A program made the translations under genes and the position numbers. This document shows, in pieces, positions 28,425-60,000 of a DNA stretch of 64,000 bases. The notes under the pieces were generated by a model. That model was not told the DNA's origin. It did not search any database and was given only the letters and a program-made list of their open reading frames with translations. Within the stretch, counting starts at the first letter, position 1. Each line of letters opens with the position of its first letter. This stretch comes from Glandiceps talaboti (taxonomy: Eukaryota; Hemichordata; Enteropneusta; Spengelidae): the NCBI RefSeq assembly GCF_964340395.1, contig NC_135562.1, positions 5,001 to 69,000 on the forward strand, read 5' to 3'.

Positions 28425-29296
28425 ATGCCGGGGAAACTGAAAGTCCGTGTGATCGCGGGTAGGGATTTGCCCGTAATGGACAGGGCAAGTGAACGAGCTG
28501 ATGCTTTCGTCGAGGTAAGATTTATCACATGTAGATCTCCGTATTATGTATTTAAATTACTGTTATTTTTTCGCGAAGGGGTTCTTTGTGTGTGTGGGTA
28601 GACTAGTGACTAAATGTACACTTCTCTTCCAATTTATATAATGTATCATTTCCAATTCTTATATATTATACGTGAGTTGATAACGTTACCATTTACCTGT
28701 GTCCATGCTTATACAAATTAATTCGAAAAGTTGATAGATCAATCATGGGTAGTTCTTGAAAACATAGTCCAATATTGTACGATCCTCAGTGACATCTGTA
28801 AAAATGAATATAGATAATATGGATATTTTAACTTCGATAACGCCAACACATTTCTGTTTTTTCACTATGGTCCTCCAATGAGGAAAATGTGAGACTGTGC
28901 ACAGATTTCATGCATGGAAATTTAGGGTATAAAAACCACTCACACCCTTGCTAAGGACGATAAAAAAAATACAGAAAAAAACTTTCAAATCACAGTTTAT
29001 GGCACAGTTTGAGCTGGTATATTACTTTGTATTAATGTTATAAATAATATATCATATAAAGTGTTTAATGATTTAATTTTGTTACTTTTGTATCTTCTCA
29101 ACCTTCTTTCAGCTCAAATTTGTGAACTCAACATACAAAACTGATGTGTACCGTAAATCACTGAACCCACAGTGGAATTCTGAGTGGTTTAAGTTTGAGG
29201 TAAAGTGTGTAAGCTTAATCTCCATACACTCTTACAGATATTTTTTACGCCACTGTAATTCGAGATGGTTTGGGAACCTTAGTGACAAATACATTG

Positions 29297-29353
<57 letters not shown>

Positions 29354-31729
29354 TGGTGGTGGTGGTGGTGGTGGGGGGGTTAGAGAGTAATGATGAAACA
29401 TCCACATGTATTATTTCAAGTATCAAGTATCAAATCTTTCTTTATTCCAGTAACAGAACATACATGTCCCTCCGTTATATACCTGGAGGAGGGTTACAGA
29501 AATACATACAAGTAGAATAAATAAAGGAAATTATGTGACCCAAAGCACAGAACAGTTTACATCACTATAAAGAGAAAAAAATAAAAAAAACAAGAAGAAA
29601 GTCAAGTATTGTCCACAATCTGTTCTGAATTTTACAGTTATCACTACAATCTACACCTGACATAATTACAATGAACCTTTTGTCTCACCATCTATATCCA
29701 TAAAGTCAGGATAAATAGTTTGGAAGAAACTCTTGCTTTTGTTGGTTGTACCTAGAGCACTTACATGTAAGCCGAAAAAGATCTTCTGACTCCACTTCAT
29801 TAGAATCACACACAACATACATGTACATGTATTCTGTTTTCTACATATGTATAGTTATTTTTATTTCTTGTATGGACCACCTGTTTCAGGTTGATGATGA
29901 AGAGTTACAAGATGAACCATTACAGATACGGATTATGGACTATGATACGTATAGTGCTCATGATGCTATTGGCAAGGTGAGTTTTGAATTATGGGCTATA
30001 CAATACATATAGCACTCATGATGCTATTGGCAAGGTGAGTTTTGAATTATGGGCTATACAATACATATAGCGCTCATGATGCTATTTGAAAGGTAAGTTT
30101 TGAATTATGGCCTATACAATACATATAGCACTCATGATGCTATTTGAAAGGTAAGTTTTGAATTATGGGCTATACAATACATATAGCACTCATGATGCTA
30201 TTTGAAAGGTAAGTTTTGAATTATGGGCTATACAATACATATAGCACTCATGCTATTTGAAAGGTAAGTTTTGAATTATGGCCTATACAATACATATAGC
30301 ACTCATGATGCTATTTGAAAGGTAAGTTTTGAATTATGGGCTATACAATACATATAGCACTCATGATGCTATTTGAAAGGTAAGTTTTGAATTATGGGCT
30401 ATACAATACATATAGCACTCATGCTATTTGAAAGGTAAGTTTTGAATTATGGCCTATACAATACATATAGCACTCATGATGCTATTTGAAAGGTAAGTTT
30501 TGAATTATGGGCTATACAATACATATAGCACTCATGATGCTATTTGAAAGGTAAGTTTTGAATTATGGGCTATACAATACATACAGCACTCATGATGCTA
30601 TTTGAAAAGTAAGTTCTGAATTATGATACTATGATTCGTATAGTGCTCATGATGCTACATGTATTTGAAAGGTAAGTTCTGAATTATATGGCCCATGATT
30701 CGTATAGAAATGTAGTGCTCATGATGCCATTAGAAAGATAAGTTGTGAATTATGGACCATGATTCATATAGCACTCATGATGCTGTTTGAAAAGTAAGTT
30801 CTGAATTATAGACTATAATACATATAGCCCTTATGATGCTATTTGAAAGGTAAGTTCTGAAGATCTAGAATCAGTTGCTAACTTGCTATAGAGTACATGT
30901 ACATATAATTATTGAGGTATTCTATGCTATAGCTGTACATAGATTTGAATCAGTTGCTTTGGAGTATGTTGTAATTAATGTGTTATTCTATGCTATAGCT
31001 ATACATAGATTTGAATCCTTTGCTTTGGAGTATGTTGTAATTAATGTGTTATTCTATGCTATAGCTATACATAGATTTGAATCAGTTGCTTTGGAGTACG
31101 TTGTTACTTGTAATTAATATGTTATTCTATGCTATAGCTATACGTAGATTTGAATCCTTTGCTTTGGAGTATGTTGTAATTAATGTGTTATTCTATGCTA
31201 TACACATGTAGCTATACATAGATTTGAATCAGTTGCTTTGGAGTACGTTGTAATTAATATGTTATTCTATGCTATAGCTATACGTAGATTTGAATCCTTT
31301 GCTTTGGAGTATGTTGTAATTAATGTGTTATTCTATGCTATAGCTATACATAGATTTGAATCAGTTGATTTGGAGTACGTTGTAACTTGTAATTAATATG
31401 TTATTCTATGCTATAGCTATACATAGATTTGAATTCTTTGCTTTGGAGTACGTTGTAATTAATGTGTTATTCTATGCTATAGCTATACATAGATTTGAAT
31501 CAGTTGCTTTGAAGTATGTTGTAATTAATGTGTTATTCTATGCTATAGCTATACATAGATTTGAATCCTTTGCTTTGGAAAGATGGAGTAGTGGGTATCT
31601 CTGGATGGTTTCCTATCTATGATACAATGCATGGAATACGAGGTGAAATCAACGTAGCAATCAGAGTGGAACTGTTTACTGATGCTAACAGGTTTAGAGA
31701 ATCATCATGTGGAGTCAAATTTTTCTGTA
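28425..31729 (+). CDS. C2CD5: C2CD5 exons 1-4: C2 domain
   Basis: Encodes MPGKLKVRVIAGRDLPVMDR onward. The five aspartates reported to bind Ca2+ in the mammalian protein are all present: Asp19, Asp26, Asp76, Asp78 and Asp84 (VMDR, ADAF, MDYDTYSAHD). Exon 2 carries LNPQWNSEWFKFE. Exon 4 begins LYIDLNPLLW and carries ISGWFPIYDTMHGIRGEINV. The exon 4 acceptor was set by frame: TATAG|CTATAC keeps the frame, while the next AG six codons in would give an early stop. Confidence 0.95.
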
Positions 31730-31948
31730 GTAAGTTCCATTTTTATAATATTGATTTAGCATAAACTTCATGTACTTCATTTTCTTCCATCAGGCAGACA
31801 TATTTATACATCTTTGCAGGACTGGGGACAGAATGGATTTATTCCATCTGCTATGTGGCTTTTAAGTTAATGCAATAGATTTTTATCACAACTGATTCAG
31901 AAGTAGGTCAGTAGGGCTACAGCCATCAGAAAACAGCCATCAGAAAAC

Positions 31949-32004
<56 letters not shown>

Positions 32005-35000
32005 CTTAAAGTCAAAAACCTCCAGCTCGATTGCCTTGGTATTTGGTGGGGACATTACCTTTGGTGTCTAGTTGGAAAATTGTTCAAAGTAACATGATTG
32101 CATCACAGGTGTGTGATGGGTCAAAAAATGCCATTTTTGGTTTAAAAAAAACAAAAAAAAACTTAAAACTACTGGGCAGATTGGTTTGAAATTTGGTGGG
32201 GATTCGTAGGTGTGTTTAGATTAAGAATTGTTTATGACATGATTCCAACACTATTGCACAGATTGGGCTGATGGGGATACATTTGGCTGTGTGTAGATGA
32301 ATAAATGATGATCTCATCATTAGCTATATGCAAATTAGGTGTAAAAATGTGAATTTAGGTGTAAAGCTTATATCTCAAAAAGTACTCTGTTGATAGGGCT
32401 GATATTTGGTAAGATATTTCTAGAACTTAGTGTTATTCTGCACATCAATGTTCAAAACATTTTGACACAATTTTCCCTAGCAACTATTGCCATGCCCTTA
32501 GCAACAACCAAATGCCCAACTGTATTTTGCTAAAATAACATCATCATCAGGTACAGGTAGGCATGTGAGTAAATGTTCAGAGAATGTATGTATATATGCA
32601 AGTATCCCTAACACTTAGTAACAGTAAGACCACGTCCATAGCAATCCCTTCAAGGACAATTATCAAAGTCGGGCCATTTCTTACCCATCACTGACACTTT
32701 GTAGTATTTATTTGTTGCTAAATTAAATCATATTTACAGATGATATAGAAGAAAAGAAGTATACACTTATCACTCATGTAACTTTTTTCTGAATGGCATT
32801 CAAGTGTCTAACCCCATACATGTATAATCACATACAAGCTTTCTTGTCAGACAGTGGCCTTGACCTTGACATTTATGGGCAATAATCAAAATCAAGCTAT
32901 TTCCTGCATGATGCAGACAGTCTAGCATATTTGTGTGGTAAATTTCTTTCTAAATGGTGTCTAAAGGTAATGCAGAACAAGAGAAATACATGTATACACA
33001 TCTTCGTTTTGTTGTTCATGACTTTTTACTGAATGGTGTCTATATTTGTAGTGAACAATCATGCTTTATTGCACAGCTCAAAAACTTTAATAATTGAGAG
33101 TCCATTCGAGTATCTATCACCATTTTATTAGGTGTAAACTTTCTTTTTAGACCTTTACCTATGATCTTGACTCTCATGGTCAATCATCGAAATCCAGCCA
33201 TTTCATGCACATCACAGACATTTTTGTTGCAACTAATTTCTTATAAATCATATCACCATTGAGTCGCATAGAAGTAATTTAAGTATTTAAAAGGGGAGTT
33301 TTAATGTGTTTTTAGTAAACATATGGAATTAATAAAGTATCCCTTCCCTTTAAGCTGTATTTATTTATTATAATAATTTTTATCTGTGTGTTTCTGTAGG
33401 TAGTTGTGTACCTTTCAACTACACTGCTGTGGCTATCTATGGATTTGTAGAAGAACTTGTTGTTAATGACGATCCTGAATATCAGGTATGGTGTCAAACA
33501 TGCACTATCGTTTGAACAGAGCCAAATCACATAGAACCAGGTATAACATGGTGTTGGGGAGGGGGAGGGGGGACAACAGCATTCAAAATTTGAAGGATGT
33601 TCTTGTTCTTGTTGTTGAGTTTGATGTTAACAGTCACAACAGTTATCAATTTTATTGGTTTATTTTCAGTATATATTATTGTAATTGGTACATTTACAAA
33701 TATATGCCACCACAACAAACTAAGCTATCAACAGACATGCTAGACTACATTTATAGGTTTACCAATTACATTGAGATTAGTTTAACCCATCAGAAATTAC
33801 CGTATCACCTAACTGGAAAGTGGGAGGTGCATTTATTGGTTTACCAGTTACATTGAGATTAGTGTAAATGTGCCTAACAACAAGACCACACCCATAGCAA
33901 CAGCCAAATGATCACTTATATTTAAAAGATAACAACAGATATTAATAGACAAATAAATAAACATTCAAAAAATGTATGCAATTATTCAATCAATTATACA
34001 ATTGTGCTACAATGCCATTGGTGCTAAATTTCATACAATCTAATACATCACATTATCATGACTGGTGGCAATTATCTGTAAACATCCATTGCTGGAGCTG
34101 AGTCATCTCTGATGACTGCTTGTTTGAATCACATACATGTACCATAGTGGGTTAACAAGATCAGTACATTTGTTTTCTACAGTCTTATTTAAATCACATA
34201 GTGGATTGACAAGATCAGTACATTTATTTTCTGTCATACTTAAATGACATAGTGGATTGACAAGATCAATTAGTAAATATTTCATTTTCTGTCATATTTA
34301 AATCACATAGTGGATTGACAAGATCAATTAGTAAATATTTCATTTTCTGTCTTATTTAAATCACATAGTGGATTGACAAGATGAATTAGTAAATATTTCA
34401 TTTTCTGTCTTATTTAAATCACATAGTGGATTGACAAGATCAATTAGTAGATATTTCATTTTCTGTCTTATTTAAATCACATAGTGGATTGACAAGATGA
34501 ATTAGTAAATATTTCATTTTCTGTCTTATTTAAATGACATAGTGGATTGACAAGATGAATTAGTAAATATTTCATTTTCTGTCTTATTTAAATCACATAG
34601 TGGATTAACAAGATGAATTAGTAAATATTTCATTTTCTGTCATATTTAAATCACATAGTGGATTGACAAGATCAATTAGTAAATATTTCATTTTCTGTCT
34701 TATTTAAATCACATAGTGGATTGACAAGATGAATTAGTAAATATTTCATTTTCTGTCTTATTTAAATCACATAGTGGATTGACAAGATCAATTAGTAGAT
34801 ATTTCATTTTCTGTCATATTTAAATCACATAGTGGATTGACAAGATCAATTAGTAGATATTTCATTTTCTGTCTTATTTAAATCACATAGTGGATTGACA
34901 AGATGAATTAGTAGATATTTCATTTTCTGTCTTATTTAAATCACATAGTGGATTGACAAGATGAATTAGTAGATATTTCATTTTCTGTCTTATTTAAATC

Positions 35001-38000
35001 ACATAGTGGATTGACAAGATCAATTAGTAGATATTTCATTTTCTGTCATATTTAAATCACATAGTGGATTGACAAGATCAATTAGTAGATATTTCATTTT
35101 CTGTCTTATTTAAATCACATAGTGGATTGACAAGATCAATTAGTAAATATTTCATTTTCTGTCTTATTTAAATCACATAGTGGATTGACAAGATCAATTA
35201 GTAGATATTTCATTTTCTGTCATATTTAAATCACATAGTGGATTGACAAGATCAATTAGTAAATATTTCATTTTCTGTCTTATTTAAATCACATAGTGGA
35301 TTAACAAGATGAATTAGTAAATATTTCATTTTCTGTCTTATTTAAATCACATAGTGGATTGACAAGATCAATTAGTAAATATTTCATTTTCTGTCATATT
35401 TAAATCACATAGTGGATTGACAAGATCAATTAGTAAATATTTCATTTTCTGTCTTATTTAAATCACATAGTGGATTAACAAGATGAATTAGTAAATATTT
35501 CATTTTCTGTCTTATTTAAATCACATAGTGGATTGACAAGATCAATTAGTAAATATTTCATTTTCTGTCTTATTTAAATCACATAGTGGATTGACAAGAT
35601 CAATTAGTAAATATTTCATTTTCTGTGATATTTAAATCACATAGTGGATTGACAAGATGAATTAGTAAATATTTCATTTTCTGTCATATTTAAATCACAT
35701 AGTGGATTGACAAGATCAATTAGTAAATATTTCATTTTCTGTCTTATTTAAATCACATAGTGGATTGACAAGATGAATTAGTAAATATTTCATTTTCTGT
35801 CTTATCTAAATCACATAGTGGATTGACAAGATGAATTAGTAAATATTTCATTTTCTGTCTTATTTAAATCACATAGTGGATTGACAAGATCAATTAGTAA
35901 ATATTTCATTTTCTGTCTTATTTAAATCACATAGTGGATTAACAAGATGAATTAGTAAATATTTCATTTTCTGTCTTATTTAAATCACATAGTGGATTGA
36001 CAAGATCAATTAGTAAATATTTCATTTTCTGTCTTATCTAAATCACATAGTGGATTGACAAGATGAATTAGTAAATATTTCATTTTCTGTCTTATTTAAA
36101 TCACATAGTGGATTGACAAGATCAATTAGTAAATATTTCATTTTCTGTCTTATTTAAATCACATAGTGGATTGACAAGATGAATTAGTAAATATTTCATT
36201 TTCTGTCTTATTTAAATCACATAGTGGATTGACAAGATAAGGACACCAAGGTCATCCAATGAAGCAAGGCAAAGGTTGTTTTCACAGCTCTCAGGTATGA
36301 TCTATCATTAACACACAGTCTAATGAATTTGGAAATTATATTTTAAAGTGAAATATACCATATTCTGATTACTCAGTTTACAGACATTTTTTGGAAGAAG
36401 TATCGTGTGCTACACCTAATTTGGGAAAATAATGACAATAAGTGTGCTAGTGTAGATGCTTATCACATGGCAGTACATGAAGAAGTCTACAAAATGCATT
36501 TAAAACGACTTTAGTGTACATGTATGAGTACCTTAAAGTTACTTCATCCTACATATCACACACACACACACAAATACAAAAATGTAGGACCATACAATGT
36601 AGTCAGTTGCTGCCAATAGAATTACCTTTGATGTGGAACACTTTGAAATGATAATCTTCCCAGATTGCCTATTTAAGTATCATGGTCTTCACTTCCTACA
36701 CAAACCCTTCTTCCAAACAGCACTCCTAGTGGCCAAACTTGTACAATCTTTTTTTCTATATGTACCCTGTATTGATGCTTACATCTCTTTGCCCCATTAG
36801 CTACTCCTTTTTATAAATGAATTTACAGAAAGAATGAAAATGCCAAGGACATGCCACATTATACTTTATATATTATAGTCCTATATCAGACATATCACAA
36901 AGCAAATCACAAGTTGTCTACCTATGGTGTAATATTTCAGACATATCACAAAACAAATCACAAGTTGTCTACCCACTGTGTAAGAAGAACCTCAGATGCA
37001 TCAACAATTTATAAAGTTTAAATAAAGTAATTCAATATACAATAATTTTTTTACATATTGGTAATCTTGATGTATGTATGCAAAGCCTACAGAAATAGCC
37101 TTAAGTTAAAAGTGTTTATCAATGTGGGTGTATTGATGATGACATACGGCTTTTTTGTTTTTATTGTATTGCTTACAGGTGAATTACAAAGAAAAATAGG
37201 ATTAAAAGTTTTGGAGATGGGAGGTAACGCAGTGATAGGGTAAGTGATACAATTTGTATACCTAAGATGGGAGGTAACGCAGTGATAGGGTAAGTGATAC
37301 AATTTGTATATCTGAGATGGGAGGTAACACAGTGATAGGGTAAGTGATACAATTTGTATATCTGAGATGGGAGGTAATGCAGTGATAGGGTAAGTGATAC
37401 AATTTGTATATCTGAGATGGGAGGTAACGCAGTGATAGGGTAAGTGATACAATTTGTATATCTGAGATGGGAGGTAATGCAGTGATAGGGTAAGTGATAC
37501 AATTTGTATATCTGAGATGGGAGGTAATGCAGTAATAGGGTAAGTGATACAATTTGTATATCTGAGATGGGAGGTAACACAGTGATAGGGTAAGTGATAC
37601 AATTTGTATATCTAAGATGGGAGGTAACACAGTGATAGGGTAAGTGATACAATTTGTACATCTGAGATGGGAGGTAATGCAGTGATAGGGTAAGTGATAC
37701 AATTTGTATATCTAAGATGGGAGGTAACACAGTGATAGGGTAAGTGATACAATCTGTATATCTGAGATGGGAGGTAATGCAGTAATAGGGTAAGTGATAC
37801 AATTTGTATATCTGAGATGGGAGGTAACGCAGTGATAGGGTAAGTGATACAATTTGTATATCTGAGATGGGAGGTAACACAGTGATAGGGTAAGTGATAC
37901 AACTTGTATATCTAAGATGGGAGGTAATGCAGTAATAGGGTAAGTGATACAATTTGTATATCTGAGATGGGAGGTAATGCAGTGATAGGGTAAGTGATAC

Positions 38001-41000
38001 AATTTGTACATCTGAGATGGGAGGTAACGCAGTGATAGGGTAAGTGATACAATTTGTATATCTGAGATGGGAGGTCATTTGGTAAGTGATACAATTTGCA
38101 GTGATAGGGTAAGTGATACAATTTGTATATCTGAGATGGGAGGTAACGCAGTGATAGGGTAAGTGATACAATTTGTATATCTGAGATGGGAGGTAATGCA
38201 GTGATAGGGTAAGTGATACAATTTGTATATCTGAGATGGGAGGTAATGCAGTAATAGGGTAAGTGATACAATTTGTATATCTGAGATGGGAGGTAACACA
38301 GTGATAGGGTAAGTGATACAATTTGTATATCTAAGATGGGAGGTAACACAGTGATAGGGTAAGTGATACAATTTGTACATCTGAGATGGGAGGTAATGCA
38401 GTGATAGGGTAAGTGATACAATTTGTATATCTAAGATGGGAGGTAACACAGTGATAGGGTAAGTGATACAATCTGTATATCTGAGATGGGAGGTAATGCA
38501 GTAATAGGGTAAGTGATACAATTTGTATATCTGAGATGGGAGGTAACGCAGTGATAGGGTAAGTGATACAATTTGTATATCTGAGATGGGAGGTAACACA
38601 GTGATAGGGTAAGTGATACAACTTGTATATCTAAGATGGGAGGTAATGCAGTAATAGGGTAAGTGATACAATTTGTATATCTGAGATGGGAGGTAATGCA
38701 GTGATAGGGTAAGTGATACAATCTGTACATCTGAGATGGGAGGTAACGCAGTGATAGGGTAAGTGATACAATTTGTATATCTGAGATGGGAGGTCATTTG
38801 GTAAGTGATACAATTTGTACATCTGAGATGGGAGGTAATGCAGTAATAGGGTAAGTGATACAATTTGTATATCTAAGATGGGAGGTAACACAGTGATAGG
38901 GTAAGTGATACAATTTGTATATCTGAGATGGGAGGTAATGCAGTAATAGGGTAAGTGATACAGTAACTATGAGTATACAATTTTTAAGTTGAAATCACAG
39001 TGAAGGTAAGACTACTAAACTTGTCATTGATTCATACTAAATACATAAAGTACTGCAAGAACCTGTCATTGATTCACGAGTCTTTACTAAATACATAGAG
39101 TACTGCAAGAACCTGTCATTGATTCACGAGTCTTTACTAAATACATAAAGTACTGCAAGAACCTGTCATTGATTCACGAGTCTTTACTAAATACATAAAG
39201 TACTGCAAGAACCTGTCATTGATTCATGAGGCTTGACTACATACATAAAGTACTGCAAGAACCTGTCATTGATTCATGAATCTTTACTAAATACATAAAG
39301 TACTGCAAGAACCTGTCATTGATTCATGAATCTTTACTACATGTATAAAGTACTGCAAGAACCTGTCATTGATTCATGAATCTTTACTACATACACAGGG
39401 TTCGCACGGTCCTGGAAAACCCTGGAAAACCCTGGAATTTCAAACCCTCCCTGGAAAGCCCTGGAAAACCCTGGAAAAATGCGCCCTACCCCTGGAAAAC
39501 CCTGGAAAATGATCATGTATAATCGATCAATTAAAATTGACGATCGTCATGTCTGTGCTCGAGCCACCCATTCATATGATTCTGAATCTCGTAAATGTGA
39601 AATTGCGAAAATATTTTCAAAGTCTTTCGCCACGCCGATTGAACCCAGACAGTCAAGCGATCGTTCCACGAGACACTTCGCCCCACAGACCGTGCCTATT
39701 AGTTGAATGGGCGCCGCAGTGTTTCTTTTGATCTTGCATATATTGCTACTCCATACATCTCCCCGTCGTCATTTCAGGGACATGATATTGTAACAGTCCC
39801 GGCCGCGCCGGGGTAACATGTACAGTAGGTCTGTTAACAAGATTATCGTAACACTGTAGCGAGTATCAACGCATCATCAACCTCGATTAGAAATTGTTAC
39901 AAGTTCGGCGCACGAGTCGACTGATACTACAAGATAGGGCTAGGGCCTAGAGAAGTGCAGTTGAATTTCCGGGTTGTGGAAGTACAGTTGTGACTTTTAT
40001 TTCGTCGATAAATGGGTATTTGTGTTACATGTTCTAAAAGAATAAACTACTGTTTTATGTTGTCGGTACAGTAACATTCGTCAATGGTCAAGTTGAGTTG
40101 AAATCGCGATGTTCCGCAACTCATGGCATCCGTACATAAACATCGAGACGCAAGCGATGAATGTATTCAGTTATTCATAGCTCGACATTTCGTTACGTAA
40201 ATGACGTTTTTATTCAAAATTTTGAAGAAAAAAATTATTTTAGGTGGCTTATAAATCTAGTAACATCAAACCATACAATAACGAGGACAAACTTTAGTTT
40301 TTGATTTATTTTTCTGGATATGTCTGAATTAGACTGACGAATGCTGCGACTCAATCTTACACGATCAATGCACCAGCTTGACGAAACGGCTGCTTAGGGG
40401 GTAGGACAGAGGTTTCTCCGTTAATCTTAGCGTGTAAACGTGGTTTTGAAACCAATATCTTGCATAGTGTCGATTGTCTTTAAAATGTTTTGTGACATAT
40501 GGAAACTGTTGTTGATTTTTCTTGTCCACATCAGACAATTAGATGTCATTCAAAAAATATACTTTAGTGTCAACACCCCTGGAAAATGTCCAAAATCAAT
40601 ATGAATACCCCTGGAAAACTGACGAAAAAACCCTGGAAAGTCCTGGAATTTTGTTTTGCTTTAAGTGTACGAACCCTGATACATAAAGTACTGCAAGAAC
40701 CTGTCATTGATTCATGAGGCTTTACTACATGCATAAAGTACTGCAAGAACCTGTCATTGATTCATGAATCTTTACTACATCATACATGTATAAAGTACTG
40801 CAAGAACCTGTCATTGATTCATGAATCTTTACTACATAGATTAAGTACTGCAAGAACCTGTCATTGATTCATGAATCTTTACTACATACATAAAGTACTG
40901 CAAGAACCTGTCATTGATTCATGAGGCTTTACTACATGCATAAAGTACTGCAAGAACCTGTCATTGATTCATGAGTCTTTACTAAATACATAAAGTACTG

Positions 41001-44000
41001 CAAGAACCTGTCATTGATTCATGAGTCTTTACTAAATACATAAAGTACTGCAAGAACCTGTCATTGATTCATGAATCTTTACTACATACATAAAGTACTG
41101 CAAGAACCTGTCATTGATTCATGAGGCTTTACTAAATACATAAAGTACTGCAAGAACCTGTCATTGATTCATGAATCTTTACTAAATACATAAAGTACTG
41201 CAAGAACCTGTCATTGATTCATGAGGCTTTACTAAATACATAAAGTACTGCAAGAACCTGTCATTGATTCATGAATCTTTACTAAATACATAAAGTACTG
41301 CAAGAACCTGTCATTGATTCATGAGGCTTTATATATGGAAGCATAACTAATTTAAAAGGAATTTTTCTATTTTCTTGATTGGTTGTAGATACAACCAGTG
41401 CTTTGATTTGGAAGGAGAGTCTGGTATTGTCGTACGTGGTATTGGTACAGCTGTTTATCTTGTTAGAACAAGTCTCATTGTAGCTTCACCATCATCCACC
41501 AGTCCCTCTAGAGATCCCCTTAGAGAGTAAGTCCTGATTTACCTTGTATTTGTTACAGCTTTTTTGAAAATATACTCAGTTTTGTTTCTTTTGTACCAAC
41601 AACTTCATTTTATTTTAATCGTTCGAGATATATTTTGCCCACGTGTTACATGTAACAGTGTTTTGTGAAGGTTTGGGAACCTTGATACAGGGTGGTGAAG
41701 TTTAGAAAAAAAATTGTAGATTTCCATACCTTGTACCATAAATGTAGTCAGAATCCTTAGAGGGGAAATCTGTTAAAATTTGCATAGATTTTCATACCTT
41801 GTACCATAAATGTAGTTGGAATCCTTAGAGGGGAAATCTGTTAAAACTTACAAAGATTTCTATACCTTGTACCATAAATGTAGTTGGAATCATTAGAGGG
41901 GGAAATCTGTTAAAACTTACATAGATTTCTATACCTTGTACCATAAATATGGTTGGAATCCTTAAAGGGGAATCTCCCTGAGAAGATATAATTATGTTAT
42001 TCCCAATATTGTTCTTTATTCAGCAGGAAAATACTCATGACCTAGTACCCAGGGTTTGTCACTATATGAGTCACAAAATTTGTCATGACTAGGTTAATTT
42101 TTATTTCCTTAGCCGAAGGAAGAAAATATTTGGGATTATATTATACCTGTCCAGTATATTGATGGTGCAAATCGAGAGATCTGATTGTTCAAGACATCAA
42201 ACTAACACATCTAAAATAGTTATGCACAGTTAGTGCAACTCTAAGTGGCCCTAAATGAGAATAGTATACTCATTTTTTGATCACTGTCGTCTGCATCCAT
42301 CATGGCTGCCACATCCATACTGTCAATCGCCTGCACAACACTTATATTAGTCATCCATGCCGAATGATAATATTTTCCCTAACTTGGGGAAATGAATAAG
42401 ATGTCTAAAAGCCCTAGAACTGTCCTATATTTAGTCAAAACAAACTAAGTTAGAGTGGCTCAGCTTAAGCCTACAGCATTGTTCTTGGCCCCATAAAATG
42501 CCGACATTGTGAGGCAGATAATGTATGTAAATCCGTCACAAAACAAATCTAACTTCAGACCATTCACAAATGAACTAGCCACTGTACAAACTAAGCAAAA
42601 CTACTTATATATATGCTGCACAGTATTAAACTTTTCATAATTTGAATATGAATTTAATGTTGTCCCTGACTTCATATCGTGAGATCATACCCATAATGGA
42701 AGGAATCACAATCAACAGATATTCAGGTTTTTGGGCCAATGTATACCTACACTTCATTTCTATTCCAAAGCATAGTTTGTTTTACCGCTTTTTAAAGTTT
42801 TGTTTTTGCAAATTTCAATACTGGTATAATAGAATGGCAATAAACCTTCCCCCTGGGGGTGGTATACCCCTTGATTTTTACCAATTGACTCCACATGCAC
42901 ATTCGCTGATGCTCCTGCGTATATGTTGTCAACTGGTCGAAACCTTGGAGTATGCCATCCCCAGGGGTGGTTTATTGCTTAAATAATAACTAATGATATA
43001 TACATACATGATATAAAAATGGTTTAACATCTTTTAGTACCATAACCTTTGAGAAAAACATAAGTCGTAACTTACTAAATCTGTTAATAGATATTTCACC
43101 ATCTCTATCAAAACCAGTGTGTCAACTCAGATTTGTTGTTGTTAGTTTCATGTACATGTACATGTACATGTGTCTGATTGGTACACTGACTTTAGCCAGT
43201 AAATTGGGGTCTTATTTAGACATAGATGTTCATATACTACCACTTTTAAGTATAAATCAACTTGACAAGTATTCTCATCAGTAACTGATACTTTTAGATG
43301 TTTTTGTCCATTTTCTTGCTACTCAAAGATTGTGGGAATTCAACCGAAGAAAGTGAGTATCTTCACTTCCACCCCTAATTTATTTGTGAATTGGTCTGTC
43401 AGAGATTCTGTTGTTTTTGGTAGCCAATCAGAATTGGTCTGTCAGGGATTCAGTTGTTCTGGTAGCCAATCAGAATTGGTGTGTTAGAGATTCTATTGCT
43501 TTTGGAAGCCAATCAGTCCAATCTGTTATAATTTGTAGGGTTATCACTTTATATGAATTCACTATTCATATTTCATCTTCACCTTTTTATGTGCTTTTTG
43601 CCACAGTAGAAAGGTATACTGCTAATAAATACCTTTTTTTTTGCAATTTTGTATCTTACTTTGATTTTTTTTTTTAGCTATTTAGTATTAATAGTATCTG
43701 TGACTTCAAGTATATACATGTAGTTGCATATTACAATGAATTTGTGCAACTGTAATGCTAAAACCTTCATTTTGTATACTGCTAATGAAATAGTACTAAG
43801 TGTGCATGATGCATTTGTGTTTTATTCTTGTTTCTAAAATCTGATTTTAGTTAAATTCGCAAATGTTACTTTTAAAGTTTAAAACTGTTATTCATATTAG
43901 ACTGAGCTTATTAAAACCAACCTCCTACATACAAAAAATACATATAGAATAGAGTAGAATAGAATATAACTTTATTGTCCTTTTTATGAAAATTTTCCTT

Positions 44001-48012: not shown

Positions 48013-48054
<42 letters not shown>

Positions 48055-51000
48055 CACTCACACAATACTGCCTTGTGTACATCATAAGTGATGGTGATAC
48101 ATGATTGTGTAATCATCTTGGTTATTTTGTTGACCCTGTTTTAACCAAAAGGTATAAATCTACAATGAAACGCTTTCTAAAATATTTGCATGCTAAAAAC
48201 AACAATTTGGTTTTAAGGTGTATGTGTAGTCTGCTGTTTAACATCCTTAATTTTTTACAGGCAGATTATTTATCAGTGGTAAGTTGAAAACACTTACAGA
48301 ATGATAGCATGATAGCACAACACGTTGCATGACATTGCTCATGGCATTGTTACATTTTGTGATCAAAGTATAATTCAATGTTATTACATCTGGTCTTCAT
48401 TTCTTTTGTATGTTTGTGGTCTCTCATAATTATCACTCATCCTAATTTTTGGCAATGTACATGTTACAAGAGGTAGCCAGAAATTTAGATATCTACATCC
48501 AGAAGACATGAAAATTCCTATTTCATAGATTTAAAACTTTTTCATTCTAATGCCCAAGTGCTTACAACTTGAAGGATATTTTTCTTTGAATTTTCCAAGT
48601 TGGAGAATGCACCAAGCCATACATGTACATAGGAACAGTTCTGTTCTTCTAAACTATCTGACTATTATTAAGAGTTGTTGGTAGAATGTACCCTAAAATG
48701 AATTTGGTTCTTTTGGACTAAATTATCTGAGTGTGTTTTAAGAGTTGATGGTAGTACATGTATGTACCCTAAAATGAATTATGTTCTTATGGACTAAATT
48801 ACCTGAGTGTGTATTAAGAGTTGATGGTAGTGCATGTATGTACCCTAAAATGAATTATGTTTTTATGGGCTAAATTACCTGAGTGTGTATTAAGAGTTGA
48901 TGGTAGTGCATGTATGTACCCTAAAATGAATTATGTTCTTATGGACTAAATTACCTGTGACAGTATGTACCCTAAAATGAATTATGTTCTTATGGGCTAA
49001 ATTAACTGTGACAGTATGTACCCTAAAATGAATTTAGTTCTCATCATATGTGTGTCAACAAGTACAACACCATTAACAAGTTGAAATAATTATTTCTAGC
49101 AAACAGTATGAAAAATGTTATTATCCTGGACCAGTTACTATTACTTGGATTTCAAAATAGGGATATTGCACAATGTAATCCATATTATGAAAGTCTTTCA
49201 TTGTAATATATGGGTCAGAAGAAGACAAAAGAAAACAAAACTTTGAAATTTAATTAAAACAATTGAGTGGATTTTATTTGCTGCTTTTTCATTGCCTCAA
49301 TAATCTTAGTCTTCAGGCTGATCTTGTTTTGTACAAGAAATGTATTATACACATAATAGTTTTCATTATCTGATTATTACATACATGATTTTATTCTGCA
49401 AACTTAACATGCTTGAACAGTTTCATTCTGACTTTTGATTTTTCACTCTATGGTAATGTTTAGAAATTTACTTCCTTAATTTTAAATTTTATGACAATTC
49501 ATTGGCATGTTGAAAAGCATACAGTTATAGATAATTATAATAATTTTATTGTGATATCATTTTTGACCAGATTTAGATAATCAAAACAATCAAACACAAA
49601 AAACTTCATAGAAGCAAAGGATAACTAATGGGTTTGATTGGTAGAAAAAAAGGTGTTAATAATTAATTTTGTTTAATACTTTCTTTTTCTCTGTGGATAT
49701 ATAGATGAACCAGAGACACGTGATGCATGGTGGACAGAGATACGTACTGAGATCCGATCACATGCTTATGCCATGGGTTGCCATGCAGTGATAGGATACA
49801 GAGAGACAACTTCTATTTGGTAGGTGCAGTGATATATATTTGGTAGGTTAGGGGATATATATTTGGTAGGTGCAGTGCTATCTATTGGGTAGGTGCAGTG
49901 ATATCTATTTGGTAGGTGCGGGGATATCTATTTGGTAGGTTAGGGGATATCTATTTGGTAGGTGCAATGATATCTATTTGGTAGGTGCAGTGATATCTAT
50001 TTGGTAGGTGCAGTGATATCTATTTGGTAGGTGCGGGGATATCTATTTGGTAGGTGCAGTAATGAAATCTGTATTTTGATATTAATATGTTTATTGCAGT
50101 GATGAGATCTGTGTTTTATCAGCTAGTGGTACAGCAGCCATCATCAATCTCCAAAGTGATATCGTGCAGCAAGCTGCCAGTAAGTCATTAACACATTCAC
50201 ATTCTTGTGAAAGTTTCAAACATTAAATAGTCTTTGGGACTTTTTTATTCATGAGATATCAGAGTTGTGTTAACAATTACTTGTTTGTTTTACATTCAAA
50301 CAAACAAATAACTATGTAAACACTTTTAAGTGTTACATTCAAACTAGAAACCATGAACACATACAGTTGTTTTACATTTCGATTTTCAAAAAAAAAATCA
50401 GAAGTAAAGACTACTTATGTTCCTTTAATCTGCTTGCTATATGTTGCAGAGTAATGACAGTGTACATTATCATGATGAAATACAAATGTAAGGTTATGTA
50501 AGGTTTTCAGTGACTAAACACAACACTGGCATGTGTCAATTTTAATTTCGCAATATCCTGGCTCTCACCTGTAATTGAAAATTTGCTGCAGGACAGTGCC
50601 CCTATAGTGGACAAAATACATGTGTGCGATCATTATCTCTCTGATAAAGCAGAATAGAAGATATAGCTCATAATCCTTATAATGTAGGAATAAATTTGAC
50701 TAAATCTCAATGAATCAAAATGGATGGTTGATGAAAATGAATTTGTTAGTTTTAACTTATCATTTATAATAAGTTATTGTTCAAAGGAAAGCAAAATATG
50801 TCTTTATTTTTAACTTCTTTTAGCAGATCAAAAGAGTTTATTAACAATGTCATTAGACAGGAAAGAATTCGAGAAGGAGAGAACACAGTTGAAGGACTCA
50901 CAGTCTACACAACAAGATGGGTATGTATTATATGACTGTAAAGATTTAAGTCCAGCTTTTAACAGTTACAGTTTAATAATACTCAACAAACTGTGTGCAC

Positions 51001-54000
51001 TGTTTACTATTGCAAAGGTAGTTAAAAAAATGACTTTTAATGTTTCATTTTAGCTACTGTTAACAAAATGACTTTTAATGTTTCATTTTAGCTACTGTTA
51101 ACAAAATGACTTTTAATGTTTCATTTTAGCTACTGTTAAATAAATGACTTCTAATGTTTCATTTTAGCTACTGTTAAAAAAATGACTTCTAATGATTAGT
51201 TTAACTACTGTCATTCAAAAAAGATGATTTCTAATGTTTAATTTTAGCTACTGTTAAAAAATGACTTCTAATGTTTCATTTTAGCTACTGTTGTTCAATA
51301 AAGATGATTTCTAATGGATGATTTTATCTACATGTACTGTTATTCAAAAAAGATGGTTTCTAATGGTTTAATTTTTAAGAGCAACTGTCATTAAAAAGAG
51401 ACATAAAACTTATCTTACAATCTTCTTCCATTTTGCAGTGTTGAAGATATTGAGCGTGTTTTTAAGTTCAAGTGTAGTCTATGTCACATTCCATATAAAG
51501 AGAATTCATTACCATTCCCTGTTAATATGGTCAAATGTTTGCAGTGCAGGTAAGCTGAAATATGGTTTCTAGTATGTGAAATTGGTAATTTGGTAAGGTT
51601 TATGCAGTTTAGTTGCTGTAGTTTTTGTAAATATTTTCAAACGTATTATATGCAATTTAACTATTATAGATCATATATCTTTAATTTGGAAACAAGCCAA
51701 ACTGATAAAAACAGACAATCCCAAAAATACAGACAATACATGCACATCCAACTATCTCAACCTTGATAAGATAAAAAGGTTTCAATCCAAAATAATATTA
51801 TGCACAATGATAGGTTAATAAGAGTAGTTGGTTGAAACTTTACTTTTGCTAGTAATGACAACCAGAGATAGCTTTAATCTGAGTATTATGACTAGTATTT
51901 ATCCTCAAGTAAAAATGAGACCATTTTATTATTAGGTCTATGACAGTTCAGTTATTGTCATATCTCATGTCATGTATATTGTTTTGATTCTTGCAGACAA
52001 CATGCTGTTCCTGATATTCTGTTCACCACTATTCAACCACCACAAGATTTAGAGATTACAGGCAGGGGATGTCTCCTTCAAGCCAGGATTTGTAGAACTA
52101 AGAAGAAAGCACAGGGTGAAGCTAATGCTTCTCTTGTCAGTGATGTAAGCAATTATTAATGCAAATGAAACTTGTCATAGAATTAATTTAAAACCATTTT
52201 GTACTTGATTACTACAAAATTGACAAGATTCAAAGCTGTCATGAGACTTTGACATTTGGTTTGTTGGTACATGTTGGTAAAAATTGAACTTTTGGGCCAG
52301 AAAGTTTATTGGTTGATATATTTAACGTACTGGCTAGTACTGCCTAACTAGTATATTTTAAGTTCCTGTATACAAAATGATTTAATTCCTAATGTACATA
52401 AACAGGTGACTTTTTAGACCACAGAAAATGATGATAAAGTCTTTGGTAATTTTGCAGGCTCTACCATTTATGGAGTATGAACTTCACAGGCAACTGATGA
52501 GTAAGCTCAAAGTAAGTGAGGCACAATGTTACTGTACTATGTAGAAAATATATTATTTTGTTATAACCAGAATATTGATTTAATTTCCATTGATCAATTT
52601 GACCCTGAAATGAGGCATTAAAGGGGTACAGTATGTAATTTACTACTGTAACATCATTTTTTATCTTTAGCACAACTGAACTAGTTTCAGTAGTGCTATA
52701 CACATGGAAAAGTGTGGATGTGTGTGTGTCTGTGGGTGTGTCTAAACAACTTAAAGTCAAAAACAGCTGGACTGATTGTCATGATATTTGGTGGATGTAT
52801 TACCTTTGGTGCCTAGTTGGGAAATTTGTCCAATCAAAATGATCTTACCAGCAGTGTGTGAATATCGGTCAAGAAATATGATTTTTGGTCAAAGAGCTTA
52901 ACCTCAAATTTCAAAATCTAATGTGCAGATTAGTGGGAATATTCTCAGGGCTCTTTAGATTATGAATTGTTGACATTATGATCCCATTAGTAATATGCAA
53001 ATTAGGTCTAAAAATGTGTCTTTTTGGTCAAAAATCCTTAATCTCAAAACTACTAAGCAGATTGGGCTGAAATTTAATGGGGATGCAGCTGGGGATGTAT
53101 AGATGAAGAAATATTAATCATATAATGATATCTTCAGTGATATGCATTTTAGGTGTAAAAGTGTGAATTTTGATCAAAAACTTAAATCTCAAGAAGTACT
53201 TGGTCAATGAGACTGAACTTAGGTAGGGTGTTTCCAGAAATGATATTCTGCAGATTTTGTTCGAGACATTTTGACACAATTGGCCCTAGCAAACATGAAC
53301 ACGCCCTTAGCAACAACCAAATGTCAGTATATTTTGCTAGAATAACAACATCATCTGGTAGGCAAGTGAGTAAACATGCAAAGTGTGTATGCAAATATCC
53401 CAAGCAACCATGACCACGCCCATAGTATTAGCCAAATGATGGTGTTTTTTACAAAGATAACGAATTAATAGACAAGTGAACAATCATTCAAAAAGTGTAT
53501 GCAAATATACCTAGCAACAAGACCATGCCCATAGCAACAACCATATGATGATGTATATTGCAAAGATAACATCAGGGATTCATAGCCCAGTGAACAAACA
53601 TTCAAAAAATTAATGCAAATTCATATGTCTAGCAGCATGCCCATGCCCATAGCAACAGCCAAATGATTGTGTACATTATACATGTATATTGCAAAGATAA
53701 CAGTAGGGCTGGATTGCCAACTGGATAATCATTCAACAAATGAACACATATACCTAGCATCAATCAGCATGTGGATAAAAAAATTTTTAAACTGTACAGT
53801 TGTGATACCACCCCATTGGTGCTATTTTTTGGAATATTGGTGGGGCCCACTTTTTTGAAATATACTCCATGTGTAAGACATAATATACCAGCTTGTACTT
53901 GCCCATATATGAGTTCAGTAATATGTTATTTACTAAGTAGTTCATGTGTGCTAAACTGATGTAAGATATGGTATACCAGCTCAGATTTGCCCATATATAA

Positions 54001-57000
54001 GTTAAGTTATGTAATTAGCGGCTAAACTGACTTAAGATATGGTATACCAGCTCAGATTTGCCCATATATAAGTTAAGTTATGTAATTAGTTCATGTGTGT
54101 TAAACTGACTTAAGATATGGTATACCAGCTCAGATTTGCCCATATATAAGTTAAGTTATGTAATTAGTTCATGTGTGCTAAACTGACTTAAGATATGGTA
54201 TACCAGCTCAGATTTGCCCATTTATAAAATGTTATGCAGTAACAGACTGTGTAATTAGAAGTGTAAATAGTCCAATTGAAAATAAAGTATAGTGATTCGA
54301 TGGAATTTAAATTTTACATATTGTTGATTTTGTATCTGTTGTAGTTGAAAGGCATGAATGCAATATTTGACCTAAGAGTTCAAGTTAATGTTGGTGAAAC
54401 ATTACTGGTTGGTGTTGCTGTAAGTATAGTATCAAACTTCCACTTCAATGCTTATATTCAATAAAGATTCTTGATTATCTCCAGATGTTTCTGTTCTACC
54501 CAATGTTGTCATTTGTCATTGATTAGCAGAAAATTGCTAATTTGTTGACAGTCAATAATTTGTTGCATGTAAACCTTTCTTCCAATTGGTTTAAAAGTCA
54601 TTGGTTTGTTGCATGTTGTAAACCTTTCTTCCAATTGGTTTAAAAGTCATTGGTTTGTTGCATGTAAACCTTTCTTCCAATTGGTTTAAAAGTCATTGGT
54701 TTGTTGCATGTAAACCTTTCTTCCAATTGGTTTAAAAGTCATTGGTTTGTTGCATGTAAACCTTTCTTCCAATTGGTTTAAAAGTCATTGGTTTGTTGCA
54801 TGTAAACCTTTCTTCCAATTGGTTTAAAAGTCATTGGTTTGTTGCATGTAAACCTTTCTTCCAATTGGTTTAAAAGTCATTGGTTTGTTGCATGTAAACC
54901 TTTCTTCCAATTGGTTTAAAAGTCATTGGTTTGTTGCGTGTAAACCTTTCTTCCAATTGGTTTAAAAGTCATTGGTTTGTTGCATGTAAACCTTTCTTCC
55001 AATTGGTTTAAAAGTCATTAATTTGTTGCATGTAAACCTTTCTTCCAATTGGTTTAAACGTCATTGGTTTGTTGCGTGTAAACCTTTCTTCCAATTGGTT
55101 TAAAAGTCATTGGTTTGTTGCATGTAAACCTTTCTTCTAATTGGTTTAAAAGTCATTGGTTTGTTGCATGTTGTAAACCTTTCTTCCAATTGGTTTAAAA
55201 GTCATTGGTTTGTTGCATGTAAACCTTTCTTCCAATTGGTTTAAAAGTCATTGGTTTGTTGCATGTAAACCTTTCTTCCAATTGGTTTAAAAGTCATTGG
55301 TTTGTTGCATGTAAACCTTTCTTCCAATTGGTTTAAAAGTCATTGGTTTGTTGCGTGTAAACCTTTCTTCCAATTGGTTTAAAAGTCATTGGTTTGTTGC
55401 ATGTAAACCTTTCTTCCAATTGGTTTAAAAGTCATTGGTTTGTTGCATGTAAACCTTTCTTCCAATTGGTTTAAAAGTCATTGGTTTGTTGCATGTAAAC
55501 CTTTCTTCCGATTGGTTTATAAGTCATTGGTTTGTTGCATGTAAACCTTTCTTCTAATTGGTTTAAAAGTCATTGGTTTGTTGCATGTAAACCTTTCTTC
55601 TAATTGGTTTAAAAGTCATTGGTTTGTTGCATGTTGTAAACCTTTCTTCTAATTGGTATTGAAGTCATTGGTTTGATGTGAATCTTTTTCAGACTGGTAC
55701 AGCAGTTTATTTAGCAGCACTGCCAGCACCCTCTGTTCTAAGAGTGACAAGTAAGGTAAGCAAATGTCGTGATAACCAAACCCTAAATGGATTTGCACAA
55801 GGCATTTGAATGACAGTAACTTGAAAGTATAATGTATGTAATACAAAGTGTGTGTGTAAGAAAAGTAAATTAATTATCATTGACTTTGATTACCCAAGCC
55901 CTATATGAAAGTGATGAGATGTGCCCTAAAGATTGGCCAGAGAGAAAATGTTGTCAAACATGAATCTTTCAAGTTGATGAGTTCTTGTATAAGTCATTTT
56001 AACTGCTGATCAAGCTATGTTGCAGCAGTAGAACTTTTTGACTTCAATTTCAGAGTGTTTTAGAAAATACTAACAAGCAACTACCTGAAGTTCGAAAGAA
56101 GATATTAGATGCAACTGCCAAGAACAAAGAAAACTATGGTGTGCAAGTAACTGTAAGTACTTCCACACTTTTATTTCAAGCAACAGAACAAAATATTTAT
56201 TCAAGAGTTAAATGCATTGTTGTGCACATTGTATCTTTTATAAGTTGTAGAGAGAATTATTTTATATTACACCTCCTTGTGGTATGTATATATTCTTGAT
56301 ATGACTCTAATTATGGTTCACTTAGATAATATATCGGTTACAGAAAATTTGCATAGATTTCCATATGCCAGTCCTTTCAATATAACTTTGCTAGAGAACC
56401 TTAGTATTAAAAGAATATGTTGAACTCATGCAGTTAGATTTTACCTACCCTAAGAAAAATGTTGGTTCATTAGTCCCCCATAGGGTGACTATTACAATGG
56501 GCTATGTCCATCAGTTTGTACGTCCACTAGACTGTCGACAGTCGCTCGCGCCTTTTTTTCCTACGTTTTATCTAAACTTCGATCCGGCGCAACACTAGTA
56601 TAATTGATATCGAGGGCTGAAGGGCCGAGTGGTCGAGGGCCGAAGGCCCGAGCTCGGGCCTTCGGGCCTCGATATCAGTTTGCGATTAGACTAGTGTTGC
56701 GCCGGATCGGAGTTTAGATAAAACGTAGGAAAAAAAGGCGCGAGCGACTGTCAACAGTCTATACGTCCACCTGCAGTACATCATTTCTCTGGGATGCAAT
56801 GTCCGATTTCTTTCAAACCAAGGACAACCTAGGTGACATGTCATACAGGACATATGCACATCACTTTGTTTCAATATATTACTGCATAACTCAGAAACTT
56901 TAATACATACTAGAAACTCCATTCAAATGTTTAACCCCATGTAAGCGTTCTTGTAAGACTGAACTTTGACCTTGAACTTCAGGGTAGACTATCAATATTA

Positions 57001-60000
57001 AGGTATTTCTTTGCAAATTGCAGATACATTGTTACAATAGCATTTATATGTGGCCAATTTCTTTTCAATCATATTTAAAGGTAATAAAGGACAAAGAAAT
57101 ACATAGCACATGAATTACTTTTGGTGCTTATGTCACTTTTTACTGAGTGGCTGCCATAGTTGTAGTGAACAATCATTATTTTTCATGTTACTAAAAACGT
57201 TAATACATACTGAGACTTCATTCAAGTGTTTACCCCATTTTTGGAGAGATTTACCTTTGATCTTCAGGGTCAGTTATCAAAATCCAGGCATTTCCTGCAT
57301 TGTCACAAACACTTTGTGCATTGTAGTGTTTATTTGTTGCCACCAATTTCTTTTAATTCATGTCTCCATTCAGTCAGACACATAGAAATAAAGTTGTTGA
57401 ATAAAGTAGTTTATAAAAAAAATTATGAGCAAAACATTGTAGTAAAACATTGTACATGTGATAACTATATAATACATTTGAATAATGAAAATTGCCATTC
57501 TTATATTGACAGCAACAGGCTTTTGGAGATAGTCCAGAAAGTCCTAAACTCCCACTAAATGGAGATGCAGAAACTATTGATGATGTCAGTGAAATTAACT
57601 TATCGTCAGGAACCAAAGAAACGTTTGTTTTAGAAATCGATGATGCTGAAGATGAAGATATTGTGTCTGTAATTTTAGATCCAGAAATTCCCAAAGGTTA
57701 GTGTGATAAACTTTTCTGTTCCACAGCCCTGTAGCCCTTCTTGACAAATATTGTCCTCTAGACCCAGAAACTCTCAAGGTTGGTGTAACAGCTTTATGTT
57801 ACATTGCACTCTAGACCCAGAAATAACAAGTGTGTCACAGTGTAATACCTGTAGACCTTCTTGACAAATATTGCTCTCTAGACCCAGAAAACTCCCAAAG
57901 TTAGAATGTAGTGTAGTACATGTAATAGAGCTTTCTGACATATACTGCCCTCGAGACCCAGAAAAAATGCCAAGGTTACAATTATCACAGTAATAGGTCT
58001 TTCTGACATATACTGCCCTCTAGACCCAGAAAAAATGCCAAGGTTACAATTATTACAGTAATAGGTCTTTCTGACATATACTGCCCTCTAGACCCAGAAA
58101 AAATGCCAAGGTTACAATTATTACAATAATAGGTCTTTCTGACATATACTGCCCTCTAGACCCAGAAAAAAATGCCAAGGTTACAATTATCACAGTAATA
58201 GGTCTTTCTGACATATACTGCCCTCTAGACCCAGAAAAAATGCCAAGGTTACAATTATTACAATAATAGGTCTTTCTGACATATACTGCCCTAGAGACCC
58301 AGAAAAAATGCCAAGGTTACAATTATTACAATAATAGGTCTTTCTGACATATACTGCCCTAGAGACCCAGAAAAAATGCCAAGGTTACAATTATTACAGT
58401 AATAGGTCTTTCTGACATATACTGCCCTCTAAACCCAGAAAAAAATGACAAGGTTACAATTATCACAATAATAGGTCTTTCTGACATATACTGCCCTAGA
58501 GACCCAGAAAACCCCTAAGGTTAGTGTGATAGAGCTTTCTGGTGAATATCCTACTATAGTTAAAAAAAAATAACAAGTACCTGGCAGTGATTATTAAACT
58601 AGCCCTTCCTGTTTAATTATTTGCTTTCTAGATCAAGACATACCCAATAGTTATTATGGTAGACTACTTCCTTCTAGGCTGAAAAATAACAAGTTGTGAG
58701 TGTAACAGAACTTTGTTAATATTGCCCTTTGCTCAACCCCATACTGTTTCGATATATTTCAGGGTTTGATTTATGCAGTACTGAAGTATTTCCTGGCAAT
58801 AAGGCTCTGACTAAACAGTTACAGGTATGTAATATATATATACGACCCTGACCAAACAGTTACAGGTAGGTAATATGTATATAATTATAAGGCCCTGACC
58901 AAACAGTTACAGGTATGTAATACTGTATGTATATAATTATAAGGCACTGACCATTGAACAGTTACAGGTATGTATATAAGGCCCTGACCAAACAGTTACA
59001 GGTGTGTAATACAGTTACAGGTATGTTATACGTATATAAGGCTCTGACCAAACAGTTAGATGTATGTGATACATATATAAGGCTCTGACAAAATGGATAC
59101 AGGCATGTGATACATACATGTATATAAGGCTCTGACTAAACAGTTACAGGTATATGATACATACATAAGGCTCTGACTAACAGCCTGATATCTGTGTAAC
59201 TGAGTGAGGGGTTATAATACATACTGGTGTAATAGCCTGATATCTGTGTAACTGAGTGAGGGGTTATTATACATACCGGTATAACAGCCTGATATCTGTG
59301 TAACTTAGTGAGGGGTTATAATACTGGTATAACAGCCTGAAATCTGTGGATTAAACTTAGTGAGGGGTTATAATACATACTGGTATAACAGCCTGATATC
59401 TGTGTAACTTAGTGAGGGGTTATAATATCTTGAAACAGCTCACAGAAAACTGTTTCATTCAATGCTTATATTATCTTTCCAAGAAATGCCATGATTTCTT
59501 TTCTTTTATGACAGATGTTTAGTGTTGTATATCGACAAACATTCAATTTGATGGAAACTCCAACCAACAAAAAGTTAGCAGAAGTCTTTGATAAACTTAT
59601 CAAGGTAAGTAATGCTACTAATAGAAAGAAAGTGTTACTTAGTAGAATTGAATCTGATATGTTTTACCTTCTGTAAAAGAAGGTTATATTTTAGGGATGG
59701 CTGTCTGTCTGTGTCACTGTTTACTTTACAGCTGTTTTCTGTAGAGCGAGTCAGTTGTATTGAATAAATCAAGATACTAAGTGAGCCTAATCACAAGGTT
59801 TCATGTTGAGATAGACACCATAAAAGATAACACACACACATCACTTACAAGGTGTGGGCTCTTTATTTAGTTAGTGATATAAACACTAACGGCATGCACA
59901 CTACTACACAAGGTATAATCAGTTGAAGTTCAAACAAAATCCATTGTCATTGCAAGCCGGACTACCCTGACACCAACTTTAGTCTGTTGTAGATGAACAT

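Follow-up and report, generated by a model that had tools for sequence, protein, structure and literature searches.

Tandem arrays over exon-intron junctions in the C2CD5 gene of Glandiceps talaboti and elsewhere in its genome

Why should a single gene hold minisatellite after minisatellite whose unit begins in an exon and runs through the splice site into the intron? This question is raised by a 64,000-nucleotide stretch of Glandiceps talaboti DNA (the window, positions 5001-69000 of contig C15 in a 590-Mb genome of 47 contigs), where a C2CD5 gene and a sulfatase gene contain arrays of this kind as real structures, each unit holding an exon edge together with its splice site. The reading that we regard as probable is that these are minisatellites of the type called mirages in amphioxus, generated by tandem duplication over exon borders, tolerated and then expanded, with junctions being hit about twice as often as under random seeding.

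Arrays built on exon borders

The junction arrays of C2CD5 lie at the donors of exons 3, 7, 11, 19 and 20 and at the acceptors of exons 4, 6 and 17 (Table 1), being nine overall when the donor array of exon 23, in the tail of the gene, is counted. In the six intact arrays (exons 3, 4, 6, 7, 11 and 20), the exon portion per unit is 8-32 nt, with units as set for the copy comparison, and the units score 69-127 against their own junction versus 20-34 for the next best among the junctions tried. Since no other junction tried comes near this fit, the six arrays arose independently. This bears out the first-pass annotation of the window, which had placed arrays holding an exon edge and its splice site at introns 3 (both ends), 5, 7, 12 and 22; its introns 12, 18, 21 and 22 correspond to introns 11, 16, 19 and 20 in the present exon numbering, from which at least one small exon is missing.

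The less regular cases named by the same annotation were also recovered. The decayed array of its intron 18 belongs to the acceptor of exon 17 and retains approximately 6 nt of exon. For the array of its intron 21, at the donor of exon 19, the consensus given by Tandem Repeats Finder (TRF) scores no better at this junction than at another one, but three stretches of the array align over the junction at 33, 30 and 49, compared with maxima of 25-27 in 300 shuffles. The sulfatase array lies at an acceptor (4978), but its TRF coordinates share just 4 nt with the exon, so that it fails the strict count used below.

Table 1. Junction arrays, two-copy junction duplications and genes. Positions are those of the window, except for the myosin stretches, which are numbered separately.
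Feature	Position	Strand	Description	Score against own junction	GT or AG kept
Exon 3 donor array (exon 29890-29976)	29945..30861	+	58-bp unit, ~16 copies, 32 nt exon edge + GT	114	GT, 15/16
Exon 4 acceptor array (exon from 31549)	30906..31579	+	66-bp unit, ~10 copies, 30 nt exon	127	AG, 10/10
Exon 6 acceptor array (exon 36225-36294)	34222..36238	+	58-bp unit, 35 copies, 15 nt exon	108	AG, 35/35
Exon 7 donor array (exon 37179-37239)	37214..38962	+	50-bp unit, ~35 copies, 26 nt exon	122	GT, 36/36 sites
Exon 11 donor array (exon 49705-49819)	49812..50060	+	23-bp unit, 11 copies, 8 nt exon	69	GT, 11/11
Exon 17 acceptor array, decayed (exon from 55693)	54559..55675	+	46-bp unit, 24 copies	36 and 34 (two alignments)	AG absent from consensus
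Exon 19 donor array (exon 57513-57696)	57697..58540	+	68-bp unit, proximal copies diverged, ~9 regular copies at 57862-58511	21 (consensus)	
Exon 20 donor array (exon 58763-58824)	58799..59177	+	unit ~43-47 bp, ~9 copies, 26 nt exon	105	GT, 8/9
Sulfatase acceptor array (exon 4810-4978)	4975..5235	-	92-bp unit, 2.8 copies	77	
Myosin L033, two-copy junction duplication	3601-3884		141 bp, 93%		
Myosin L032, two-copy junction duplication	6435-6567		66 bp, 98%		
Myosin L036, two-copy junction duplication	3959-4060		50 bp, 90%		
Myosin L030, two-copy junction duplication	4583-4815		117 bp, 78%, therefore older		
C2CD5 gene	28425..63278	+	exons 1-22 as modelled; 3 further exons beyond the window		
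Sulfatase gene	window	-	PF00884		
CMSS1-like gene	window	-	PF14617		
DUF3504/phage-integrase-like open frame	window		between CMSS1 exons		

Intron 3 of C2CD5 (29977-31548) is filled by a donor array and, after it, an acceptor array, only 44 of its 1,572 bp being outside both; by subtraction, its length before the growth of the arrays would have been around 100-200 bp. Also, the 280-bp intron 11 is mostly taken up by its donor array. Beyond the window, an array with a 72-bp unit (69994-70646 in window coordinates, stretch L010) reaches up to the acceptor at which the last C2CD5 exon begins. By eye, its first copy is similar to a portion of the exon before, so that the array may be a decayed junction array that started at the opposite side of the intron.

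The C2CD5 exons were mapped with a human protein probe and then set by eye against splice sites. Joined at their authentic splice sites, exons 1-8 give an open reading frame. The model lacks one or more small exons between exons 9 and 10 and perhaps another between exons 12 and 13, and the donor position of exon 9 is uncertain. Tandem repeats were called by TRF, rows with a unit below 15 bp being removed and each set of overlapping rows being reduced to its best row.

Comparison of the units with junction windows gave a score of at least 30 for 28 of 91 array rows, including repeated rows of single arrays and arrays on the intron side alone, versus 11/91 for intron control windows, which were five times as numerous as the junction windows, and 3/91 for shuffled units. 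Some arrays were excluded from the counts despite scoring against a junction window, being just inside the intron (46680, 45393 and 69994; 1914 and 3443 in L030; 756 and 4952 in L034). Two candidates that had seemed plausible by eye were rejected with scores at background, namely the array at 41717-41972 as a donor array of exon 8 (score 18) and that at 51021-51331 as an acceptor array of exon 13 (score 15).

No array contains a whole exon (0 of 91 arrays, compared with 117 modelled exons), in agreement with the first-pass annotation, and one weak repeat of 20 bp in two copies (63220-63259) sits within exon 22. The further remark that donor arrays always lie downstream and acceptor arrays upstream of their exon is correct as a description. 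However, copies of a border-straddling segment can only come to lie in the intron next to the intact exon, so this one-sided placement is forced by geometry.

Frequency at junctions compared with chance

The expected number of junction arrays was obtained from a null model in which a random seed of unit length is intronic or straddles a border, an overlap being counted where 6 nt or more lay on both sides of the border. For this purpose C2CD5 was collapsed to one unit per array, giving 23,249 bp, of which 2,232 are exonic; some rows were merged by hand (37214/38098, 39035/40679, 48686/48912 and the 58799-59177 rows), the repeat at 63220-63259 was left out, and exon 22 was taken as 63193-63284, the later model being 63191-63278. 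Among 24 minisatellites with a unit of at least 15 bp, there are 6 strict junction overlaps versus 1.75 expected (p=0.006), or 8 if the decayed array of exon 17 and that of exon 19 are included (p=0.00017). For the 15 arrays with at least 4 copies, the count is 6 versus 1.18 expected (p=0.0006), or 8 with the same two arrays (p=0.000005). All these in-window p-values are post hoc, the window having been selected for this very feature.

Because the window was chosen for its junction arrays, sequence outside it was tested separately. The sample comprised NOL10, a gene downstream on C15 recognised from its open frames, where donor arrays occur at exons 8, 9 and 13; nine myosin stretches found by Pfam search and taken for their compactness (74,809 bases), with the exon ends in L029, L033, L034 and L036 adjusted by hand before counting; and the C2CD5 tail, where 1 of 3 arrays is a junction array versus 0.26 expected. 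After removal of the array at 68978-69176, which has the same unit as that at 67979-68511, the pooled count is 10 of 58 arrays on a border versus 5.48 expected, a 1.8-fold excess (p=0.035). One 29-bp array in L032 (8055-8123, score 64) spans a border by eye, beyond its TRF coordinates and thus outside the strict count, and its addition gives 11 (p=0.013). Moreover, the myosin border arrays all have a unit of at least 40 bp (6/18 versus 2.66 expected), and in NOL10 the removal of a 428-bp unit leaves 3/14 versus 1.40 expected.

A second and coarser test compared two donor 9-mers with their reversed controls, these being the only two control words, over the whole genome, for pairs spaced at 21-51 bp. 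As pairs of matches are not independent, arrays were counted instead, by eye over the matched spans. For AAGGTAAGT, 19 arrays were found versus 10 for the control among the matches listed (C1, C2, C4 and part of C5; p=0.01), or versus 11 when two adjacent blocks of the control are counted separately (p=0.016). Normalised to site counts, the ratio of tandem arrays is around 2.2 for both donor 9-mers among the matches listed.

Several results weigh against the proposed origin of the arrays and its twofold junction rate. Taken alone, the myosin stretches give 6/40 arrays on a border versus 3.22 expected (p=0.09), with exon models that are incomplete, and their arrays with a unit below 40 bp give 0/22 versus 0.56 expected. 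NOL10 alone gives 3/15 versus 2.00 expected (p=0.31). For CAGGTAAGT, the arrays are 8 versus 4 in the control among the matches listed (C1-C2), with p=0.33. The pair counts appear larger, CAGGTAAGT having 657 pairs in 7,510 sites versus 250 in 5,869 for its reversed control and AAGGTAAGT 777 in 8,922 versus 291 in 12,217, but a handful of large arrays dominates them, and a 9-mer match does not prove a real donor. Finally, human minisatellites located at exon-intron boundaries reportedly alter splicing (PMC2812944), so that tolerance cannot be taken for granted.

Altogether, a roughly two-fold excess of arrays at junctions over random seeding is supported, modest and not overwhelming. The early statement that their number is far more than chance placement therefore stands as regards an excess, but not as regards its size, which outside the window is just the 1.8-fold given above.

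Origin of the arrays and of their decoy sites

The anatomy of the arrays, their recurrence in unrelated genes, the existence of two-copy examples and the modest excess at junctions are observed, and from these the following sequence of events can be proposed. Break repair would make a short tandem duplication, from tens of bp up to some 150 bp in length; where this segment ran across a border, the intact exon would stay beside one authentic site and the extra copies would land in the intron. An allele with such intronic copies would usually be tolerated in splicing, and the array would then grow and homogenise like any minisatellite, via unequal exchange or slippage. Judged from the genome sequence, tolerance of junction arrays under splicing is plausible.

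The initial step is illustrated by four two-copy junction duplications in myosin stretches (Table 1). Their array length minus two units is +2, +1, +2 and -1 bp in L033, L032, L036 and L030, respectively, which suggests that there is little microhomology at these duplications. Lengths within 2 bp of two units agree with an origin by fill-in and end joining, and fill-in at breaks with 3' overhangs is reported to generate small tandem duplications in mouse and human cells (PMC8355091). The duplications attributed there to CST-Pol alpha-primase fill-in are likewise of tens of bp and mostly made by end joining, but the breaks were induced in mouse and human cells and the covered text makes no tie to exon borders.

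The approximately twofold junction rate admits both a mutational preference and unequal survival. In its stronger form, the first of these is a junction-targeted duplication, with germline breaks or nicks concentrated at exon borders through transcription, R-loops, nucleosome edges or splicing-coupled events. This explanation, which the first-pass annotation had put forward as an alternative to survival bias, is possible but doubtful. The excess outside the window points in its direction, for arrays as for motif arrays, with two-copy cases included, and should part of the 9-mer matches be false donors, the real junctions would have a larger excess. However, the effect is small and only nominally significant, and the myosin arrays with fewer than 3 copies show 5/30 versus 2.57 expected (p=0.10).

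A second explanation is random seeding with tolerance, where duplications occur anywhere, coding ones are purged and junction arrays are the chance share, the window being striking through its selection. We consider it rather unlikely. The myosin and NOL10 counts, each taken alone, are compatible with it, and only 5 kb separate the window from the end of contig C15, in very array-rich DNA: minisatellites with a unit of at least 15 bp make up 56,911 of the 244,000 bases of C15:5001-249000, near the contig end, and approximately 5.3 kb of 74.8 kb in the nine myosin stretches elsewhere in the genome. Nonetheless, it is opposed by the pooled count outside the window, with or without the L032 29-bp array, by the AAGGTAAGT arrays among the matches listed and, post hoc, by the in-window counts.

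Selection for function of the copied splice sites, for example as a backup for a lost authentic site or by slowing splicing, is very unlikely. The GT or AG dinucleotide is kept in 154 of 160 copies (10 arrays), 11 of 14 decoys at exon 3 outscore the authentic donor under a donor matrix, and for five of the six arrays compared first the splice core belongs to the third of the unit with less divergence, the divergence being lowest at exon 4. However, over 10 arrays the conservation of the splice cores does not significantly exceed that of the remaining unit (mean mid-rank 0.43, Wilcoxon p=0.31), and selection was rejected on this result, the six arrays alone having looked more favourable. Moreover, the consensus of the exon 17 array has lost its AG, and the median decoy is weaker than the authentic site at NOL10 exons 9 and 13 and at myosin L029, and equal to it at exons 7, 11 and 20 and NOL10 exon 8. 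Since the cores show no significant extra conservation, youth and homogenisation are enough to explain the intact decoys. Unit lengths are not multiples of three in 9/10 units as set for the copy comparison (8/10 by TRF periods), so splicing at just one inner copy would in most cases disrupt the reading frame.

An assembly artefact, with repeats collapsed or inflated at exon borders, is scarcely credible: tandem arrays are prone to misassembly and one amphioxus draft mirage was reported as aberrantly assembled (globin study, PMC3087553), but contig C15 is 24.4 Mb long, array copies differ by scattered substitutions and two-copy cases also occur on contigs C5, C6 and C12.

Known systems, host and surroundings

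Amphioxus mirages, as described in PMC3087553 and PMC3902484, are tandem duplications of exon-intron boundaries in Adh3, TnC, the globins BflGb6 and BflGb9, and PGBD5, where splicing is said to be undisturbed and length instability is seen. In those sources their units are minisatellite-like, 10-160 bp long, and cover donor as well as acceptor boundaries, many but not all copies have AG or GT, and the boundary copies lie outside the homogenised part. The present arrays likewise have units spanning the exon-intron boundary, affect both 5' and 3' boundaries and keep AG or GT in most copies. They differ in their host, an enteropneust hemichordate, in reaching approximately 35 copies, in the filling of C2CD5 intron 3 by two arrays and in the presence of nine junction arrays in one gene. 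By these structural features, read from the genome sequence, the arrays can be classed as mirages, for which the host group is probably a new one; mirage reports from hemichordates or echinoderms were not found in the literature searched, most subscription papers being outside reach.

Other systems are more distant. In human segmental duplications, variable minisatellites at exon-intron boundaries have units of around 30 bp on average, with 27 intron modifications (PMC2812944); as described there, they vary in exons of recent primate paralogs, with novel introns or alternative splicing possible, whereas here the copies are intronic beside an existing border. Intron gain from tandemly duplicated AGGT proto-splice sites, a process considered in PMC3087553, likewise multiplies splice signals, but the present duplications sit next to introns that already exist, and a new one is not demonstrated.

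Introner elements are dispersed families that bring splice sites into genes. They and the present arrays both multiply splice sites in genes, but introners are dispersed whereas each array is specific to its junction. Membership of an introner family was rejected, as no sequence common to the insertion sites was found and the six intact arrays match just their own junctions.

With these arrays, mirages known from a handful of amphioxus genes are extended to probably another deuterostome phylum, with a rough estimate of their excess. Arrays of dozens of near-identical donors or acceptors beside one authentic site are test material for site choice by the spliceosome, and also for the idea of intron gain from duplicated borders. 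A broader proposal, which we put forward tentatively, is that exon-intron borders could be favoured birthplaces of short germline tandem duplications in deuterostomes with minisatellite-rich genomes; mirages would then be a general mutational signature, common to amphioxus and a hemichordate, and a standing source of decoy sites and new introns.

The mitochondrial genome bears on the host. On contig C40 (L008, L009) it appears as a threefold head-to-tail unit, with cox1 three times at 15,435-bp spacing. The transfer RNA for lysine (tRNA-Lys) has the anticodon ctt, and the opposite strand has a doubtful Lys/Asn ttt match. None of the eight mitochondrial genes counted (cox1, nd4, nd5, nd6 and atp8 being outside the count) contains AAA, AGA or AGG, and the cox1 body has neither AAA nor AGG. 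This combination of a CUU anticodon with missing AAA and AGG is that of Balanoglossus, whereas echinoderms and a pterobranch have CUU but use AAA (PMC3121625). The neighbourhood of nd5 and cob, as in Balanoglossus and Saccoglossus (PMC2697986), was not found, cob lying between atp6 and cox3, nor was the cephalochordate tRNA-Lys UUU with AAA as lysine. These characters would fit an enteropneust hemichordate and not a cephalochordate, and amphioxus as host is ruled out by them. A search of the genome for the GFP family gave no match, but its control gave none either.

Finally, some observations concern the surroundings of C2CD5. A weak match to the CMSS1 N-terminus (27982, minus strand, E 0.02) lies head to head with the C2CD5 start codon (28425, plus strand) at 443 bases, which suggests a shared promoter region. 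Between the CMSS1 exons, the minus strand of 23716-26882 has open frames matching FLYWCH, DUF3504, QRICH1 and phage integrase, with PHD slightly below the Pfam cut-off, and is likely a mobile element. Downstream on C15 (L014-L015) there are two long open frames, by eye of the long terminal repeat retrotransposon type.

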